From Nitrosomonas sp. Nm34 (GTDB taxonomy: Bacteria > Pseudomonadota > Gammaproteobacteria > Burkholderiales > Nitrosomonadaceae): a stretch of 64,000 nt of DNA. Location of the stretch: NCBI RefSeq assembly GCF_900113925.1, contig NZ_FORD01000017.1, forward strand, positions 1 through 64,000, written 5' to 3'. The notes beneath the pieces were generated by a model. It made no database searches, was not told the DNA's origin, and saw only the letters and a list, made by a program, of their open reading frames with translations. A program made the position numbers and the translations under genes. The first letter of the stretch is position 1. Every line of letters starts with the position of its first letter. Below are positions 2,633 to 63,344 of this stretch, one piece after another.

Positions 2633-5808
<3,176 letters not shown>

Positions 5809-5934
5809 CTAAATGAAAAATATATTGTTATACAATAAGCTATGTAATTTATGCCTGTGGTGCTATATGAGTACCTAAATAAACATCAGGCCCAGAACGG
5901 CATGTAACGGGCGTAGCGTTCTGAAGCAGGAGCA

Positions 5935-5963
5935 GTAGGTTGGGCTGACGAAGGAAGCCCAAC
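5935..5963 (+). repeat. REP element, left copy flanking the RAYT gene
   Basis: A 29-base sequence (starting GTAGGTTGGG, ending GGAAGCCCAAC) that is itself partly palindromic (GTTGGGCT...AGCCCAAC). Its exact reverse complement lies at 6536-6564, so the pair brackets the RAYT transposase gene. This is the usual layout of a REP/RAYT unit. Confidence 0.85.
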
Positions 5964-5975
5964 ATGCCCAACACA

Positions 5976-6509
5976 TCACCGCTCACCATAGTCATCCACA
6001 CCATTGTTCATCATTTCACCACCCCAATTTGCCGTTGCCATGCCCCGCTCGATATACCCATGCAAAGTTGAATAAGGCCAATCCACCGCGCGCGCTGCCC
6101 AACCATGCTTGACCGGATGGTAATGAATGTAATCTACATGTCGCTCTAAATCGGCTTCATCCCGGATTTGATGTTCCCAATAGCGCCGTTGCCAAATGCC
6201 GCGTTCTCGCTTGGCTTGCCGACTAACGCTGACCACTTCGCCGACTGCCAGCCGCCGTGAAAATCCAGCTTTGATCAGCGACCAGCGCAACGGATAATCC
6301 GCGTTGCTCTCCGGCAAGCGCCAGATTGCGTGCAGGTGTTCGGGCAGCACCACCATCGCCACGATGGCGAATGGATGACGGGTTTTCACCGCATTCACCG
6401 CCGTGCGAAAAGCATCAATATGCCGTACCAAGATATCAGAACGCCGGTCTGCGAGATTTACCGTGAAAAAGTAGGTTCCTCCCGCTGTTCTTGCACGCCG
6501 ATAATGCAT
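5976..6509 (-). CDS. REP-associated tyrosine transposase (RAYT, Y1_Tnp)
   Basis: A 177-residue single-strand DNA transposase related to IS200/IS605 TnpA. It has the HUH motif (His58-Leu-His60 in VLPEHLHAIW) and the likely catalytic Tyr127 in VDYIHYHPVKHG. RAYTs act on REP palindromes, and perfect inverted REP copies sit just outside this gene (5935-5963, 6536-6564). It starts four bases after hsdS stops, so it may be co-transcribed with the hsd operon. It splits hsdS from hsdR. The frame is intact, so the enzyme may be functional. Confidence 0.9.
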   Translation of the reverse strand: MHYRRARTAGGTYFFTVNLADRRSDILVRHIDAFRTAVNAVKTRHPFAIVAMVVLPEHLHAIWRLPESNADYPLRWSLIKAGFSRRLAVGEVVSVSRQAKRERGIWQRRYWEHQIRDEADLERHVDYIHYHPVKHGWAARAVDWPYSTLHGYIERGMATANWGGEMMNNGVDDYGER

Positions 6510-6513
6510 CTGA

Positions 6514-7791
6514 TCAGTTCTGTGGTGATGCTGGTGTTGGGCTTCCTTCGTCAGCCCAACCTACGGTTTCTGGTACGCGCAGTTCGCCGGAGAGGAGTTT
6601 GGGGAGAAGGGTGTCGCGCAGGGAGGCAAGTGTTCTCGTCTGGTTGGTATTAGAAAGAATCACTTCGAAAAGCGGAGCCAATAATTCCTGGTAAGAACAA
6701 CGTAAGTCTGCTGTAGCAGCTAAAACACGCATTTCTGAGAAGCGGCCTGTACTAAGGTTTGTCAATACTGAACCACCGCTGCCACCTGCTCGGATTTCGT
6801 CGCCGAGATCTCGGAGAGTCCAGAACCAGTAGTACGTTTCACCCAGGTGCTCCGGGACAACCGAATTGATTTGCTGATTCGTCTGAGAATCTTCTGTTGT
6901 AATAACCACCAGCCCCGGCGTTGCTATACAACTCACACAAATTGAACCAGCCGGTAATGTCTTCTTCGTCTGCGATACTGCTCCTTTATGTGAGAGCTTT
7001 CTCTGGGTCATTGTGGCAAAGACGTTTCCATGCATATCCGGGATGGTAATGAATGGAATGTCATTTCCGTAATAAGCTGGATTCTTCGTCGGTGGAGTCT
7101 TTCCACATACGATGTTTCCAACATCCCTCACAGCCCACACAAACCACCCCTCCGGAATCTCGCCGAGTTCGGAGTCGACGAGTCGGTCGGGGAAGAGGGC
7201 GAGGAGGTCGGGAGTGAGTCCAAGGCGGTGGCAGATGGTTTCGGACGGTTCGCCGCTGGCTTTGGCGCGGACGGGGTCGAAGTCGACAAACCAGGATTTG
7301 AAGATCGCTCGTGCGATGGCCTCCAGCGTTTCGCTCATGCGTCGGTTCAGTTCGATTTTGTCGTCGAGTTTGCCGAGGATGTGGGCGATGGCGTGTTGTT
7401 CTTCAAGCGGCGGAACATTCACCTCTATTGGGTAAATAAAGTTGCGATTCAGCGAAGGTTGAGCACTACCGGAATTGTACCTGGCGAAGCTGATACTCTT
7501 CAGAAAGTAATAAGCAAATTTCGGATCATTACCGTGAAAATCGGTGACGTACAAAGCCGTGTTATGTGGCCAGTAATTAACCGGACAGTAATGCACCTGA
7601 CCAAAAGAAGCGCCACTTCGCCCAATTACGATTCCAGGGCCCTTGGCCAGCGCGATGTCGTGAAAACCATTCTGTCCAGCTGAACCCATTACAGGAATCG
7701 TCCCAGGTTTACGCTCTATCTCGGTCAGATCATGCCCTCGCTGAAGGCTTACGAACTCGCCAAGCGTGGTGTGCCGCCAATTACCTGCCAT
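6514..7791 (-). CDS. hsdS: Type I restriction-modification specificity subunit
   Basis: A 425-residue HsdS, the DNA-recognition subunit of the type I methylase/restriction complex. Two target-recognition domains (about 1-130 and 215-365) are each followed by a helical spacer; the first reads PPLEEQHAIAHILGKLDDKI and the last TRTLASLRDTLLPKLL. The start overlaps the hsdM stop by 11 bases, as expected for translational coupling. The final ~17 codons, after SGELRVPE, run through the right-hand REP copy, so the C-terminus (GWADEGSPTPASPQN) is repeat-derived. The frame is intact. Recognition sequence cannot be read from sequence alone. Confidence 0.92.
   Translation of the reverse strand: MAGNWRHTTLGEFVSLQRGHDLTEIERKPGTIPVMGSAGQNGFHDIALAKGPGIVIGRSGASFGQVHYCPVNYWPHNTALYVTDFHGNDPKFAYYFLKSISFARYNSGSAQPSLNRNFIYPIEVNVPPLEEQHAIAHILGKLDDKIELNRRMSETLEAIARAIFKSWFVDFDPVRAKASGEPSETICHRLGLTPDLLALFPDRLVDSELGEIPEGWFVWAVRDVGNIVCGKTPPTKNPAYYGNDIPFITIPDMHGNVFATMTQRKLSHKGAVSQTKKTLPAGSICVSCIATPGLVVITTEDSQTNQQINSVVPEHLGETYYWFWTLRDLGDEIRAGGSGGSVLTNLSTGRFSEMRVLAATADLRCSYQELLAPLFEVILSNTNQTRTLASLRDTLLPKLLSGELRVPETVGWADEGSPTPASPQN
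6536..6564 (-). repeat. REP element, right copy inside the hsdS 3' end
   Basis: Exact reverse complement of 5935-5963. It lies within the coding end of hsdS and supplies part of that protein's last codons, and it flanks the upstream side of the RAYT gene. Confidence 0.85.
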
Positions 7792-8020
7792 AACCCAACC
7801 TCGCCAAATTCTCGCGTATCACGGCCTCTAGCCGCGCGCTTTCTCTGAATTGCTCGTTTAACTGCGCGGTGAGTCGCGCCATTATGTCCTCGAACGGTTC
7901 GCCGTCGGTTTCCTGTTCGGCCGCGCCGACGTAGTGGCCGGGGGTGAGTACGTAGTCGTGCTTTTTGATGTCTGTGAGCATGGCGGCTTTGCAGAAGCCG
8001 GGGATGTCTTGATAAATGAG

Positions 8021-8050
8021 TTGCCCTTCGACAGGCTCAGGGCGAACGGA
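8021..8050. repeat. In-frame dispersed palindrome in hsdM (second)
   Basis: GCCCTTCGACAGG...CAGGGCGAACGG is a small stem-loop that adds about ten residues (SVRPEPVEGQ) between the HAWK and DIPGFCKAA segments of HsdM. The same sequence, and the peptide RPEPVEG or its antisense FDRLRANG, is recalled as a common dispersed repeat in proteobacterial genomes. Confidence 0.7.
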
Positions 8051-8180
8051 TTGCTTCCAGGCGTGGAAGGTGTCAGCGATCTTGCGGATGTCTTCCGGCG
8101 CGAAGTCGCGGAGCACGCGGTCTTTCATATAGCCGAGGTTGCGCGCGTCGATGAACAGGGTTTCGCCTTTGCGGTTTCTG

Positions 8181-8217
8181 AGCTCTGGATTCCCGCTTTC
8201 GCGGGCATGACGGCCAC
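8181..8217. repeat. In-frame dispersed palindrome in hsdM (first)
   Basis: GGATTCCCGCTTTCGCGGGCATGACGG has TCCCGC/GCGGG arms and is a widely dispersed REP-like sequence by recollection. It inserts about 13 residues (SGRHARESGNPEL) between FLTKHKQ and RNRKGETLFIDARN of HsdM, without breaking the frame. Confidence 0.75.
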
Positions 8218-9556
8218 TTTGTTTGTGCTTGGTGAGGAACCAGATGCAGGCGGGGATTTGGGTGTTGGTGAACAGCTGGCCGGGTAACGCGACCATGCAT
8301 TCGATCAGGTCAGCCTCAATTAGTGCTTTGCGGATGCCGCCCTCGTTGTTGGTGTTGCTGCTCATGGAGCCATTGGCGAGCAATAGCGCCATACTGCCGT
8401 GTGGCGCCAGGTGGTGGATCATGTGCTGCATCCAGGCGAAATTGGCATTGCTCGCGGGTGGGATGCCGTAGTGCCAGCGCGGGTCGTCGTCTTTCACGCC
8501 GGCGTTCCACTCTTTCATGTTGAACGGTGGGTTGGCCATGATGAAGTCGGCGCGCAGGTCGGGGTGCTGGTCGCGGGTGTAGGTGCTGGCGGGTTCTTTG
8601 CCGAAGTCGAAGTCCATGCCGCGGATGGCCATGTTCATTGAGGCCAGGCGCCAGGTGGTGGGGTTGGATTCCTGGCCGTAGACGGAGATCTGGCCGATGC
8701 GGCCGCCATGCTCTTCGACGAATTTTTCCGATTGCACAAAGAAGCCGCCGGAGCCGCAGCAGGGGTCGTACACGCGGCCCTGGTAGGGCTCCAGCATTTC
8801 GACGATGAGGGTGACAATGCTCTTGGGCGTATAATACTGCCCGCCCTTTTTGCCCTCAGCCATGGCGAATTCGCCGAGGAAGTATTCATACACATGGCCC
8901 AGGATGTCTTTGGCCTTGAGCGTGCCGTGCTTGAACGGAATTTCAGCGATGAGATCGATCAGGCCAGGCAGTGCGGCGTCGATCTGCTTGCGCGCGTAGT
9001 CTTTTCCAGCACACCTTTAAGTTTGGGGTTTTCCTTTTCCACCGCTTCGAGCGCATCGTCGAGCAGGCGGCCGATGCCGTTGAATTTGTAGTCGGTAGTC
9101 TTGCCGTTCTTGACCTGCAGCACGGTGCCGACCGCAACCTTGGCATGGGCTTGCAGGAAATCCCAGCGCGCCAGCGCCGGCACCCAGAATACGTTCTTTT
9201 CGGTGTAATAGTCACGCGCTTCGAGTTCCTGTTCGATCAGCTCGGCGCTGTCATCGCCCAGGTAATAATCATGGTTCGGGTCGCGGAAGGCAAGCTCAAG
9301 CTCAGCACGACGTTCCTTGAACGCATCTGACACGTATTTGAGGAAAATGAGGCCGAGCACCACATGCTTGTACACCGCGGCATCGAGCATCGGCAGCAGC
9401 TTGTTGGCCATGGTCCATAGGCGTTTATCGAGTTCGTTGAGGAATTGCTGTTCTTCAAGATTCATAAGGGTTACTGCATGATTATGTCCATTCGAGAGTG
9501 CCGATTTGAGCACCGGCAAGCGCATCAGTCAAGCGAGTTGTATTCAAGGTGAATAT

Positions 9557-29760: not shown

Positions 29761-29940
29761 GAGCCTTCTAAAAGTTCATATTTGTGAGCGCCCGCTTCGC
29801 GGATTGCCTGCTTACCCCGTCTCGTCATAATACTATGTTGTTCACAAAAAATATTTCCTTACCTAGCAGTGATAGGCTGAATCAACATTTTTTGTTCTCG
29901 CCTTGTCTTGTTTAGAACTCTGAATTTTTAGAGGTGCGCT
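29761..29940 (-). repeat. Family-2 MITE-like element, copy A (diverged)
   Basis: About 180 bp directly after the orphan permease gene. Read on the minus strand it aligns along its whole length with 63167-63344. Shared features are the CTCTAAAAATTCAGAG-type end, the AGAACAAAAAATGTT region, GGGTAAGCAGGCAATCCG and the TTTTAGA-type other end. The internal palindrome is degraded here (TTCCTTACCTAGCAGTGATAGGCTGAATC). Flanking duplications are not evident. Confidence 0.8.
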
Positions 29941-29976
29941 TATGTTTACGTCTCTGTCTTTTGCGATATTATCTGC

Positions 29977-56206: not shown

Positions 56207-56918
56207 GAAATTCTCTTTTTGTGTTGGGTTTGCGTATAAGGCAGATCAAGTTTGAAGTACAACTTTTATAAGATTAACGAGAGACAAGCTGCGATAACAT
56301 CCGAGTTGCTTGAAAAGGTGCTTCTTATATTCTGGCACAGTGGAATCGCGCTATATTCTGACGGGCGACTATCAACTAAACCTGCTGAAGGGGTAACAGA
56401 AAGGATTAATAATGTGCTACTTTCTCACCAGCACAAAGGTCACACTGTAACACTTGGTAATGCCAATAAATTTGCAGAACATGAAACTATCGCCTCAGAG
56501 CTGGAAGCTGCCATTTAGCTTGCGCCCCCCGACCATTCATGAGAGCGAGGATGGAATGAGAAATAGTAATGGCTTAAATCTTGCTACGATAGTATTTCTC
56601 AGTAATATGAAATTGACTGATAAAGTATCTGGATTTAGAGAGAGCGCATGAAGTGTGTTTCGGTTTATCGGTAAGTTATACCAGATAGTCATCAAAAGTT
56701 ATACTTCGAATTAGGACCCACGTGTTGAAAAAGAGGTTTATTCCACCATTGTACCAAGTACACTCGTCCTTATTGCATCTTCGACCAGGACGAATTTCTA
56801 CCGTTAATGCACGTGCTGATAATAGAATAGGAAGGAGCTATTCTAATCTAAAAACAGCAGATAGAGTAGAGCAATACAAAATACTGCAGAAAACTCTTTA
56901 TCAACTACAAATTTGATG
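56207..56918. other. Spacer with doubtful small reading frames
   Basis: About 700 bases between the divergent GNAT and earP genes. An 88-codon frame at 56252-56518 opens at TTG, contains no recognised motif and lacks a clear ribosome site. A 64-codon frame (56722-56916) runs into the earP start and also has no family features. I do not accept either as a gene. No repeat or RNA gene recognised. Confidence 0.4.
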
Positions 56919-60310: not shown

Positions 60311-61010
60311 TGCCGTCTCGGTATGAGGCGTGCCAATACTCAGTGATTTCTTCAATAGAAATGAGCTTTAGATCACTGATTGCAAAGTTGCTGCAGCATG
60401 ATGGTGATCGCCTTGGGCAAAGCAAAGATTGCTCGATCCTTGATTCCAGTTGCTTGTAGGAGCATTCGTCGATCATCCATAGCGCTTTTATGATTCTTGC
60501 TTTGCTGCAGCCCCTTCATTCCACAAAACTCAGCATACCTCAGTCCTCTTATTGGCCTTTACACGAACTCCGGGTACATTTGGGCAAACATATTCACTTT
60601 GTTTGTGGAATTAGTCGGTATTGCAGGCGCAATTACATTACTTTACCGGATCCAAGGGTAGCTTCTCCCAAAAAATTTAATTGTTGGAGTTACATAAAGA
60701 GGAGGATGGCTAATTGAATCCTCTGGGTTTTTCAATGAATCAATAGTTTAAGCCGAGCTGCGGTGCCGGATTTCTTCTGTTGATGAACACACCCTGCAAC
60801 TCTACCGGTGATAGGTGTGTCAATCGACTCCAGCAATCGACAAAGATTGAATTACTCTATTCATATGAGAGATTTTTGGATCGTTTAACAGAAAGTGTGT
60901 TCCAACTAATTAACTTTATATATTTCTTACTTTAATAGAGAATAACTTTTATTTCTCGACATAGGCTTGCCCATTCTTCTAAATTTCATAATTTGGATAC
61001 CGTATCTCTT
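60311..61010. other. Gene-poor spacer before pcm
   Basis: About 700 bases. Short frames at 60247-60459 and 60490-60717 on the + strand have no recognisable domains, and the first begins inside the repeat copy. The minus strand also shows only broken stretches. This could be a decayed mobile or accessory gene, but I cannot name it. Confidence 0.4.
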
Positions 61011-61766
61011 ATGAACTCATCAGCTCGCGCGTTGATATCATTATGGATAGTCAGCATCCTGTTGATTCACAGTCTGATTGCTCTTACCGGATGCAGCGGA
61101 GTTTCACGAGAGGACTCGCGGCTCAAAGATCCTACGCGTCAAACCGAACGCGACAGTATGGTGGATGAACAGATCATTCCTCAGGGAATTAAGGACCCGA
61201 AGATCCTGAGTGCAATGCGCCATGTTCCTCGCCATAAGTTCGTTCCCTCCGGTTACTCTGATCTGGCCTATTATGACATTCCTCTCCCGATCGGCCACGG
61301 CCAGACGATCTCGCAACCTTCTCTTGTTGCGCTCATGACCGAAGCGCTGGCATTGGAAGGAGCCAAGAGAGTGCTTGAGATAGGAACCGGTTCAGGATAC
61401 CAGTCTGCGGTTTTGGCTGAGATTGTGCCGGATGTCTTCACCATAGAAATCGTCCAGCCCTTGGCGACAAAAGCCGCGCATACACTGGCAGAGCTGGGTT
61501 ACCGCAACATCCACGCACGCGTTGGTGATGGCTATCGAGGCTGGCCTGAAGAAGCGCCTTTCGATGCCATTATTGTAACCGCCGCACCCGATCATGTACC
61601 GCAACCGCTCCTTGATCAGCTCGCGGTTGGGGGGCGGCTGATTCTGCCAGTTGGCCGCGACTACCAGACCCTGGAGCTCCATTACCGGACTGCTAAAGGC
61701 TTTGAGCGCAAAATCATTACGCTCGTGCGGTTTGTCCCGTTAGTGCGCGAGAGACAACCAGAGTAG
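61011..61766 (+). CDS. pcm: Protein-L-isoaspartate O-methyltransferase with lipoprotein signal
   Basis: SAM enzyme that repairs isoaspartyl residues in aged proteins. It has the PIMT segments MRHVPRHKFVP (~63-73), IGHGQTISQPSLVALMTEAL (~87-106) and EIGTGSGYQSAVLAEIVP (~116). It also has an N-terminal extension with a hydrophobic stretch (LISLWIVSILLIHSLIALTGC) ending in a lipobox with Cys28, so it may be an envelope lipoprotein, unlike the usual cytosolic form. The ATG at 61011 is preferred to a TTG six codons earlier. It stops three bases before the permease gene and is G+C-richer than the backbone. Confidence 0.88.
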   Translation: MNSSARALISLWIVSILLIHSLIALTGCSGVSREDSRLKDPTRQTERDSMVDEQIIPQGIKDPKILSAMRHVPRHKFVPSGYSDLAYYDIPLPIGHGQTISQPSLVALMTEALALEGAKRVLEIGTGSGYQSAVLAEIVPDVFTIEIVQPLATKAAHTLAELGYRNIHARVGDGYRGWPEEAPFDAIIVTAAPDHVPQPLLDQLAVGGRLILPVGRDYQTLELHYRTAKGFERKIITLVRFVPLVRERQPE

Positions 61767-61769
61767 ATC

Positions 61770-63134
61770 GTGGAGATGGAGAAATCTAAGCAAGATCCGT
61801 CTACACTTCCCCGACACATCGGCTGGTTTACGGCTAGCTGCGTCCTTGTCAGTAGTGTGGTCGGCACGGGCATTTTTACCACTACCGGCTTCATGGCCCG
61901 CGACCTCGGCCATCCTGGTGTGATCCTCTCGGTTTGGCTGGTAGGAGCGCTGATCGCGCTCGCAGGGGCTCTCTCTTATAGTGAGCTGGGCGCGGCCTTT
62001 CCTGTCGCCGGCGGAGAATATACATACCTGCGCCGCGCCTATGGGCCATTCCTCGGATTTCTAAGTGGATGGACGTCTTTCACCATCGGCTTTAGCGCTG
62101 CTATTGCCGCAAGTGCCATGAGCTTTGCTGCTTACTTCCTCCAACTCCTTCCGCTTAATGGCGAGGGAAGGTGGCTATCTACAGCCTTAGCCTTAGCCCT
62201 CCTCTGGTCCATTACAGGTTTCCACCTCGCTGGCGGTGGAGCAGGAGGCGCTCTCCAGCGCAGCCTGACGGTGCTGAAGATGGGAGCCATTCTCTTGTTC
62301 ATGGTAGTAGGGCTAATGTTCGGAGCGGGCGACTGGGCACATCTTATTCCCACGGATACTCAGCCTGCCTTCAGCATGGGAGCTTATGTCGTGTCATTGG
62401 TTTTTGTGCTCTATGCCTATTCTGGCTGGAATACCGCGGCGTATCTGGCGGGAGAAATTACTGATCCTGCCCGTACTATTCCCCGCACGATGATTGGCGG
62501 GACCCTTTTCGTGGCATTGCTTTATCTCATGCTGAATGGATTCTATTTTTACGCTCTGCCGGTGACAGAGCTAGCTACGCCACCACTTTTGCCCGTTGCC
62601 GATAAAGTTGCGCGAGCCATGCTGGGCCTCGAAGCCGGCCAATTTGTAACTGTCATCTTGTGCCTTTCAATCGCAGGAGCTGTGAGCGCCATGGTGTGGG
62701 TCGGATCGCGCGTCTACTATGCCATGGCACAAGATGGGTTGATTCCCTTCGTCTTTGCGAATACCTCTGGCAGGCAATGTACTCCGTTCAACGCTATTCT
62801 GCTGCAAAGCCTCTGGGCTTCAGCCTTGATTGTATCGGGGAGCTTCGAGCAATTGGTAATTTATAGCGGTTTTGCGTTGGTGATTTTCAGCGCACTCGCA
62901 GTCGGTGCAGTATTGATTCTACGTCGACGGGAACCGGATTTGCCCCGCCCTTATCGCACGCCTCTTTATCCGTTTATTCCCGCGTTCTATGTGTTGGTGT
63001 CAATCGTCATAGTTGGGAGCGTGCTTTATGAACGGCCGTTAGAAGGAGGGGTGGGAATCGCGACCGTCTTAGCTGGGACGCCACTATACTTACTCTGGCA
63101 TCGATTCCGTCGTATCGGAAAAAAGGGCGCGTGA
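61770..63134 (+). CDS. APC-family amino-acid permease
   Basis: A 454-residue inner-membrane transporter with about 12 helices. Helix 1 carries the substrate-binding break VVGTGIFTTTGFM (~31-43), followed by SELGAAFPVAGGEYTYLRRAYGP-type sequence around residues 72-94. Helix 6 region reads VLYAYSGWNTAAYLAGE, where amino-acid carriers have their second unwound segment. It starts at GTG 61770 directly after pcm, so the two form an operon. Substrate not predictable beyond amino acid or amine. G+C-richer than the dcw genes. Confidence 0.9.
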   Translation: MEMEKSKQDPSTLPRHIGWFTASCVLVSSVVGTGIFTTTGFMARDLGHPGVILSVWLVGALIALAGALSYSELGAAFPVAGGEYTYLRRAYGPFLGFLSGWTSFTIGFSAAIAASAMSFAAYFLQLLPLNGEGRWLSTALALALLWSITGFHLAGGGAGGALQRSLTVLKMGAILLFMVVGLMFGAGDWAHLIPTDTQPAFSMGAYVVSLVFVLYAYSGWNTAAYLAGEITDPARTIPRTMIGGTLFVALLYLMLNGFYFYALPVTELATPPLLPVADKVARAMLGLEAGQFVTVILCLSIAGAVSAMVWVGSRVYYAMAQDGLIPFVFANTSGRQCTPFNAILLQSLWASALIVSGSFEQLVIYSGFALVIFSALAVGAVLILRRREPDLPRPYRTPLYPFIPAFYVLVSIVIVGSVLYERPLEGGVGIATVLAGTPLYLLWHRFRRIGKKGA

Positions 63135-63166
63135 CTTGCAGCAAGGATGCAGCCTTAACCACATTA

Positions 63167-63344
63167 GGGCGCCTCTAAAAATTCAGAGTTCTAACCAAGA
63201 CAATGCGAGAACAAAAAATGTTTCCTTACCTATCACTGATAGGTAAGGAAACATTTTTGTGAACAACGAAGTATGATGGCGAAGCGGGGTAAGCAGGCAA
63301 TCCGTGAAGCGGATGCTCGCAAATATGGATTTTTAGAGGTGTCC
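63167..63344 (+). repeat. Family-2 MITE-like element, copy B (well preserved)
   Basis: 178 bp with terminal inverted repeats GGGCGCCTCTAAAAATTCA and, on the other strand, GGACACCTCTAAAAATCCA. It is flanked by ATTA on both sides (63163-63166 and 63345-63348). The centre is a perfect hairpin around TTTCCTTACCTATCA...TGATAGGTAAGGAAA (63221-63252). It has no coding capacity. It lies about 30 bases after the permease stop, where the hairpin could also end transcription. Confidence 0.9.

Follow-up and report, generated by a model that had tools for sequence, protein, structure and literature searches.

Protein L-isoaspartyl methyltransferases (PIMTs) of the canonical Pcm type are repair enzymes normally located inside the cell, whose gene lies in a surE-pcm-nlpD setting, and it is commonly assumed that methylation by SAM does not extend beyond the inner membrane. 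The closest described departures are CI-PIMT of Paracoccus complex I (8qby_t) and RPA2580, in which, according to passages of PMC11522691, the four residues that hold the substrate in other PIMTs (Thr and Ser for the isoaspartate, Asp and Gly for SAM) have all been changed, leaving catalytically dead proteins. The PIMT described here, from Nitrosomonas sp. Nm34, has points in common with both. It shares with canonical Pcm (3lbf; PF01135, NF001453, TIGR00080) the predicted fold and the isoaspartate- and SAM-binding residues, but adds a signal, a lipobox and a linker and is encoded outside the surE-pcm-nlpD setting. Like CI-PIMT and RPA2580 it appears to be a PIMT fold in a non-standard placement, but it keeps the residues that these proteins are reported, in the same passages, to have lost. 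We think it rather probable that this is a periplasm-facing lipoprotein that repairs isoaspartyl damage in envelope proteins and that it was gained, paired with a permease, from Nitrospirota. Searches of the open-licence PMC literature turned up no description of an exported PIMT.

The window, by which we mean the whole stretch of 64,000 nucleotides analysed (contig NZ_FORD01000017.1, positions 1 to 64,000), carries the PIMT and permease genes near its end, on the same strand and with 9 nt between them. The initial annotation had recognized here a PIMT with a signal-like helix and a lipobox beside a permease, and this description proved to be right, coordinates included. The features are as follows.

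61011..61766, + strand: PIMT gene, start ATG, 251 aa
61011..61091, + strand: signal-peptide-like segment, residues 1-27, with a predicted helix at 3-25
61092..61094, + strand: codon of Cys28, predicted lipidation site of the lipobox LTGC, with Ser at +2
61095..61145, + strand: linker from Cys28 to the PIMT domain, pLDDT <50 at residues 29-34
61146..61742, + strand: PIMT catalytic domain, residues 46-244
within the PIMT domain, + strand: SAM motif EIGTGSGYQ, residues 123-131
61776..63134, + strand: gene for a LAT-like APC-superfamily amino-acid permease, start ATG, 452 aa
61001..63114 (about), + strand: two-gene cassette, the extent common to loci L005, L006 and L007 on unrelated flanks
63167..63344, no strand assigned: MITE-like insertion, just downstream of the cassette and outside it, with another copy at 29767-29945

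The permease has an alternative in-frame GTG start at 61770. For the PIMT, the in-frame TTG at 60993 is a less likely start than the ATG at 61011, because the position of the latter is common to L004-L008.

Membership of the protein in the PIMT family is indicated by two equivalog models (NF001453, 248.5 against a cut-off of 188; TIGR00080, 216.5 against 159.05) and by PF01135 (210 against 20.3 bits), while its score of 215.7 with the archaeal-type equivalog NF010549 lies below the cut-off of 282. The best PDB match of the predicted model is E. coli Pcm 3lbf (TM 0.94, rmsd 1.0). When the contact residues are placed on the window protein by reading of the motifs, all four are kept, as T99 and S101 for the isoaspartate and D173 and G174 for SAM, and their conservation in the signal-bearing relatives is 1.00, 1.00, 0.94 and 1.00, respectively. 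From its sequence and model the enzyme looks active, and the retention of these contacts implies that selection maintains a SAM site in an exported-looking protein.

An exported PIMT might nevertheless have been recruited to other work, either methylating a particular secreted protein or peptide or acting as a binding protein. Precedents for such a change would be the dead complex I subunit, as treated in the passages of PMC11522691 referred to above, and the methyltransferases linked to graspetides, which are known PIMT relatives with a different role. We consider this unlikely for the window protein, in view of its four kept contacts, the absence of a consistent substrate gene among the neighbours scanned and its scores of 125 bits with TIGR04188 and TIGR04364 against cut-offs of 380 and 320. 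On these same scores a RiPP/graspetide reading was rejected.

The genome that holds the window has two other PIMT copies. One (L002) is an ordinary pcm between surE and an nlpD-like gene, as judged from its neighbours by eye. The other (L003, on contig C71 of genome G000) reads GAVMLTP in place of GQTISQP, so that Thr and Ser are replaced by Val and Leu, as they are in CI-PIMT; it keeps the Asp and has Ala in place of Gly. Its sequence makes it a candidate dead copy and the one that resembles CI-PIMT and RPA2580, and it may serve as a complex I subunit in Nitrosomonas.

The window PIMT opens with 27 hydrophobic residues, the last four of which, ALTG, precede Cys28 and give the context ALTGC-SG, in which LTGC (residues 25-28) matches the signal of bacterial lipoproteins. 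AlphaFold2 (mean pLDDT 92) predicts a helix at residues 3-25 and, beyond a link modelled with low confidence at 29-34, a well-predicted PIMT domain. Of 300 shuffles of this N-terminus, 38% produced a hydrophobic stretch of any kind and 6% one that was followed by a lipobox. The lipobox of the window protein, taken alone, could thus be due to chance, and the case for a signal rests on the relatives.

These relatives were the best 80 of 566 from a collection scan (81 rows with the window), and their signals were called by a home-made rule rather than by SignalP, the rule being a 12-residue uncharged hydrophobic window after a start codon followed by a lipobox or a small-residue end. A signal-like N-terminus was scored in 71 of the 81 rows (43 with a lipobox, 26 signal-I-like, 2 unclear); two of the ten negative rows are cut by a contig end. 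The same rule found a signal in 1 of 30 canonical PIMT controls drawn from the phylum, and that one (L122) looks like a false call. We also examined 40 genomes, representing half of the 80 loci and chosen for holding a window-like copy. Sixteen of them yielded 20 further copies, 19 of which are signal-free by the rule; the single signal-positive copy (L219) falls in the exported clade of the tree described below, as do two of the 19 (L217, L218) in which a lipobox-like sequence lies below threshold. In the nearest clade of that tree, which has 21 rows, a lipobox-like Cys is present in 20 of the 20 rows examined, L019 having been left out because of its cut frame. Over a set of 92 signal-scored rows, which leaves out duplicates and the two calls judged false (L122, L181), 47 are of the lipobox type, compared with 2.1% of shuffles, so that the lipobox across the family is beyond chance. 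Among the five nearest relatives, three (L006, L007, L008) have a Pro at position -2 of their lipobox, a residue that lies outside the usual pattern. LspA (PF01252) is present in all six genomes tried, including that of the window.

The initial annotation had named permease-linked homologues without a signal as evidence that would tell against it. The linked copies give no such evidence. A signal is carried by 13 of the 14 permease-linked rows (in one of the 14, L012, the permease is only a fragment), and the exception, L019, comes from a low-coverage contig in which the frame stops just ahead of the core. A lipobox-like end was also seen in three additional linked copies, L173, L222 and L223, the latter two being judged by eye.

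The signal might still be misread or optional if translation began at Met50 and gave an ordinary cytosolic PIMT, possibly in addition to an exported one. The codons for residues 50-51 are ATG GTG, a possible start for such a shortened protein, and no clear Shine-Dalgarno sequence precedes the ATG at 61011. Met50 is likewise without one, however, and is a near-invariant residue of the family regardless, while the segment ahead of it is an uninterrupted in-frame stretch whose length does not differ among five loci. Pairwise dN/dS values for five near relatives are 0.33-1.38 over codons 2-27, which are therefore loosely constrained, 0.16-0.49 over codons 28-45 (where values could be computed for 8 of 10 pairs) and 0.13-0.23 over codons 46-112; the constraint on codons 28-45 argues against a start at Met50, and we regard such a start as very unlikely.

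Another alternative keeps the N-terminal helix as an uncleaved anchor and turns the PIMT domain toward the cytoplasm, where it would repair membrane-associated cytosolic proteins. Such a placement would account for the supply of SAM and for the conserved SAM site, and some Nitrospirales relatives do combine an acidic or uncharged n-region with the lack of a lipobox. Of the 92 signal-bearing rows, 15 have an n-region without net charge and 6 have a negatively charged one, many of these 21 coming from one Nitrospirales subgroup, and eight relatives that have a hydrophobic segment but lack a lipobox, and in which the n-region is neutral or acidic (L024, L026, L027, L029, L037, L040, L175, L176) could, from their sequences, be uncleaved anchors of either orientation. 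The n-region is positive in the other 71, however; signal-I-like ends occur in other rows, the lipobox-like Cys recurs throughout the examined rows of the nearest clade, and Lgt and LspA act on the outer face of the inner membrane. For the window protein we accordingly rate a cytoplasm-facing anchor as quite improbable. The initial annotation had offered a cytoplasm-facing anchor, another role of the enzyme and a misread signal as ways out of its difficulty with SAM; of these three, we favour neither the anchor nor the misread signal.

Cysteine content was considered as a sign of an oxidising compartment. When the exported-looking copies were compared with the remaining copies of their own genomes, they had fewer core cysteines in 11 of 16 genomes, as many in 3 and more in 2. 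In the same match list, however, 8 of the 10 rows without a signal likewise have none, and independent-pair tests on the tree gave no significance for low cysteine. As an independent proof, cysteine depletion is weakened by ancestry, and we set it aside.

The distribution of the signal was followed on a quick tree of 184 rows (182 labelled) built from the core domain alone, the deep branches of which are weakly supported. The signal label changes 8 times on this tree (4 of the changes forced by starred branches), compared with a mean of 61 and a minimum of 50 for shuffled labels. One large group of 88 rows contains 81 with a signal, 5 without and 2 truncated, and the titles of its members name Nitrospirota, Acidobacteria, Planctomycetota, Verrucomicrobia, Omnitrophota, Zixibacteria, KSB1, Chloroflexota, Bacteroidetes and others. 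A second, betaproteobacterial group, with copies from the genus and order of the window, has a signal in 10 of 12 rows; eight of ten copies from this genus and order (L085-L094) have no lipobox by the rule. The main cytosolic group is without a signal in 74 of 76 rows, the two exceptions being the calls judged false. By these sequence comparisons the window PIMT belongs to an extensive subfamily of exported-looking proteins that often supplies the sole PIMT found in a genome, a circumstance that the initial annotation had not foreseen.

In 21 of the 40 genomes the only full-length PIMTs found bear signals; ten of these 21 are titled Nitrospira. The 24 full-length PF01135 matches in these genomes are the signal-bearing loci (G217:C1 and G215:C7 being judged by eye), and the next PF01135 matches among those listed are short and score at most 60.1 bits. 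Single absences prove little, since genome completeness figures are not reported, but it is unlikely that all 21 are gaps. Of 118 genomes drawn from the Nitrospira phylum, 70 have a match with an E value of at most 1e-10, and since signal-bearing and signal-free kinds both occur among these matches, export is not universal in that phylum.

The permease matches PF13520 (AA_permease_2) with 200.7 against a cut-off of 27 bits. It aligns nearly end to end with 6f2g (E 2.7e-59), which we take to be BasC, and with the eukaryotic LAT exchangers 7b00 and 7p9u, but it differs from them in that its score of 239.7 with the L-type transporter model TIGR00911 lies below the cut-off of 701.8 bits. In 17 genomes searched, a permease homologue of at least 68% identity occurs in 13 and adjoins a lipoprotein-type PIMT in every one of these, which bears out the pairing proposed by the initial annotation. 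Homologues of 60-61% identity lie elsewhere in the genomes G219 and G308, and a search of the genomes G221 and G222 gave none at E 1e-20. The permease adjoins the PIMT in 13 of the best 80 loci (once as a fragment), and two more of these loci have a 31-32% relative further away. Three genomes (G215-G217) hold two lipoprotein PIMTs each, one of them permease-linked. The sequences identify the permease as a close partner on the Nitrospira/Nitrosomonas branch only, most of the exported-looking PIMT family being without it.

There are several indications that the two genes travelled together. DNA similarity between the window and L005, L006 and L007 begins at 60919-61001 and ends at 63099-63150, and L008 and L009 have a shorter part of the cassette in common with the window; among six loci compared, only that of Nitrosomonas sp. 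Nm33 (L004) shares the flanks. On the protein tree the Nitrosomonas copies are nested among Nitrospirota (the 21-row clade, 97% SH-aLRT), within a six-row group (95%) of four Nitrosomonas copies and L006 and L008, which are titled Nitrospirota or Nitrospirae and are MAG contigs for which misbinning is possible. The L006 locus has a G+C content of 60%. In the window, the PIMT and permease genes have G+C contents of 0.544 and 0.545 and GC3 values of 0.563 and 0.558. The whole window has a G+C of 0.454, and the listed ORFs between 13 and 56 kb have a GC3 of 0.33-0.47; a higher G+C is also seen in the gene at 56913 and in much of the first 10 kb. The cassette occurs in 2 of 37 genomes of the genus, its own included, and seven others have a different copy of ~50% identity. 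Because of the unrelated flanks and the nesting among Nitrospirota, the pair probably moved into Nitrosomonas as a two-gene unit, and the joint acquisition that the initial annotation had suggested from the pairing and the higher G+C is supported by the sequences. Transfer from Nitrospirota is the simplest reading of the sequences, and its direction is what we infer from them. Carriage by a phage or plasmid found no support: no relative in viral contigs was confirmed, the 508 matching records of a plasmid collection are all below 60% identity, and the one annotated plasmid match inspected (H2), a 410-codon Rhizobium gene, has no signal because it begins just ahead of the core; another match (H1) carries no annotation.

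The MITE-like element that follows the cassette is ~178 bp long; its terminal inverted repeats of 24 nt are imperfect, and it contains a perfect palindrome of 22 nt. It has at least 71 matches in its own genome (40 of 61 candidates scored), at least 26 of which span 160 or more of 191 bases. At the same site Nm33 has no MITE, and a single ATTA replaces the flanking ATTA pair. At the other end of the window, type I restriction genes of higher G+C occupy 2633-9525 on the - strand. The system looks damaged, since HsdM is spread over two ORFs (N-terminal domain at 8959-9525, methylase at 7781-8893, - strand) and the match of HsdR to the model of its N-terminal domain is confined to the second half of that model.

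With regard to the supply of SAM, a Pfam scan of 25 upstream and 23 downstream same-strand neighbours at chosen loci of the wider clade found no widely shared family that might feed SAM to the enzyme, and in the part of the loci examined outside the Nitrospira/Nitrosomonas branch no candidate for this role was seen. The best families were Lon_C (3 of 25 upstream, including the neighbour of L022) and HbpS-like (6 of 23 downstream), the latter presumably being the six downstream neighbours, all Nitrospirae-titled, that are 62-63% alike. In L022, L024, L027, L029, L037 and L040, also Nitrospirae-titled, the anchored PIMT follows a protein of 227-276 aa, which is 51-53% alike to that of L022.

We know of no SAM exporter. 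Carriers of the LAT type work by exchange and have a site for amino acids, and in yeast a member of the APC superfamily serves to import SAM; the partner permease could therefore carry SAM or SAH. It is conceivable, though very doubtful, that the pair forms a periplasmic methylation module in which the permease swaps cytoplasmic SAM for periplasmic SAH, or otherwise feeds SAM outward, and the lipid-anchored PIMT uses this SAM in the repair of envelope proteins. If so, many bacteria would hold a periplasmic pool of SAM.

The reading of the window protein as a periplasm-facing lipoprotein would entail the following steps. The PIMT would be made with a lipoprotein signal, cleaved by LspA before Cys28 and anchored by lipid. 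The residue at +2 is Ser and not Asp, the latter being the avoidance signal according to the abstract of PMC5727369, and the Ser suggests that the protein would be sorted to the outer membrane, on its periplasmic face. Isoaspartyl residues may build up in the long-lived envelope proteins of slow-growing nitrifiers, and the anchored enzyme would methylate them and so start their repair, using SAM that might arrive outside the cytoplasm by leakage, by a transporter or from lysed neighbours in flocs. The gene pair would have entered Nitrosomonas from Nitrospirota as one unit. Support for a role in lasting cells is mixed: E. coli pcm mutants survive stress less well according to passages of PMC5705917, and RPA2580, the longevity gene of that paper, is catalytically inactive according to those of PMC11522691.

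What stands of the initial interpretation is the lipoprotein-like N-terminus, the pairing and the joint acquisition. Its premise that SAM is absent outside the cytoplasm does not fare as well, being questioned more than confirmed by these data. The PIMT retains its catalytic residues and is preceded by a signal, and many genomes yielded no cytosolic counterpart; this implies that the envelope has SAM at its disposal or that PIMTs of this kind are placed or used in a way that has not been described, and the annotation pcm need not mean cytosolic repair.
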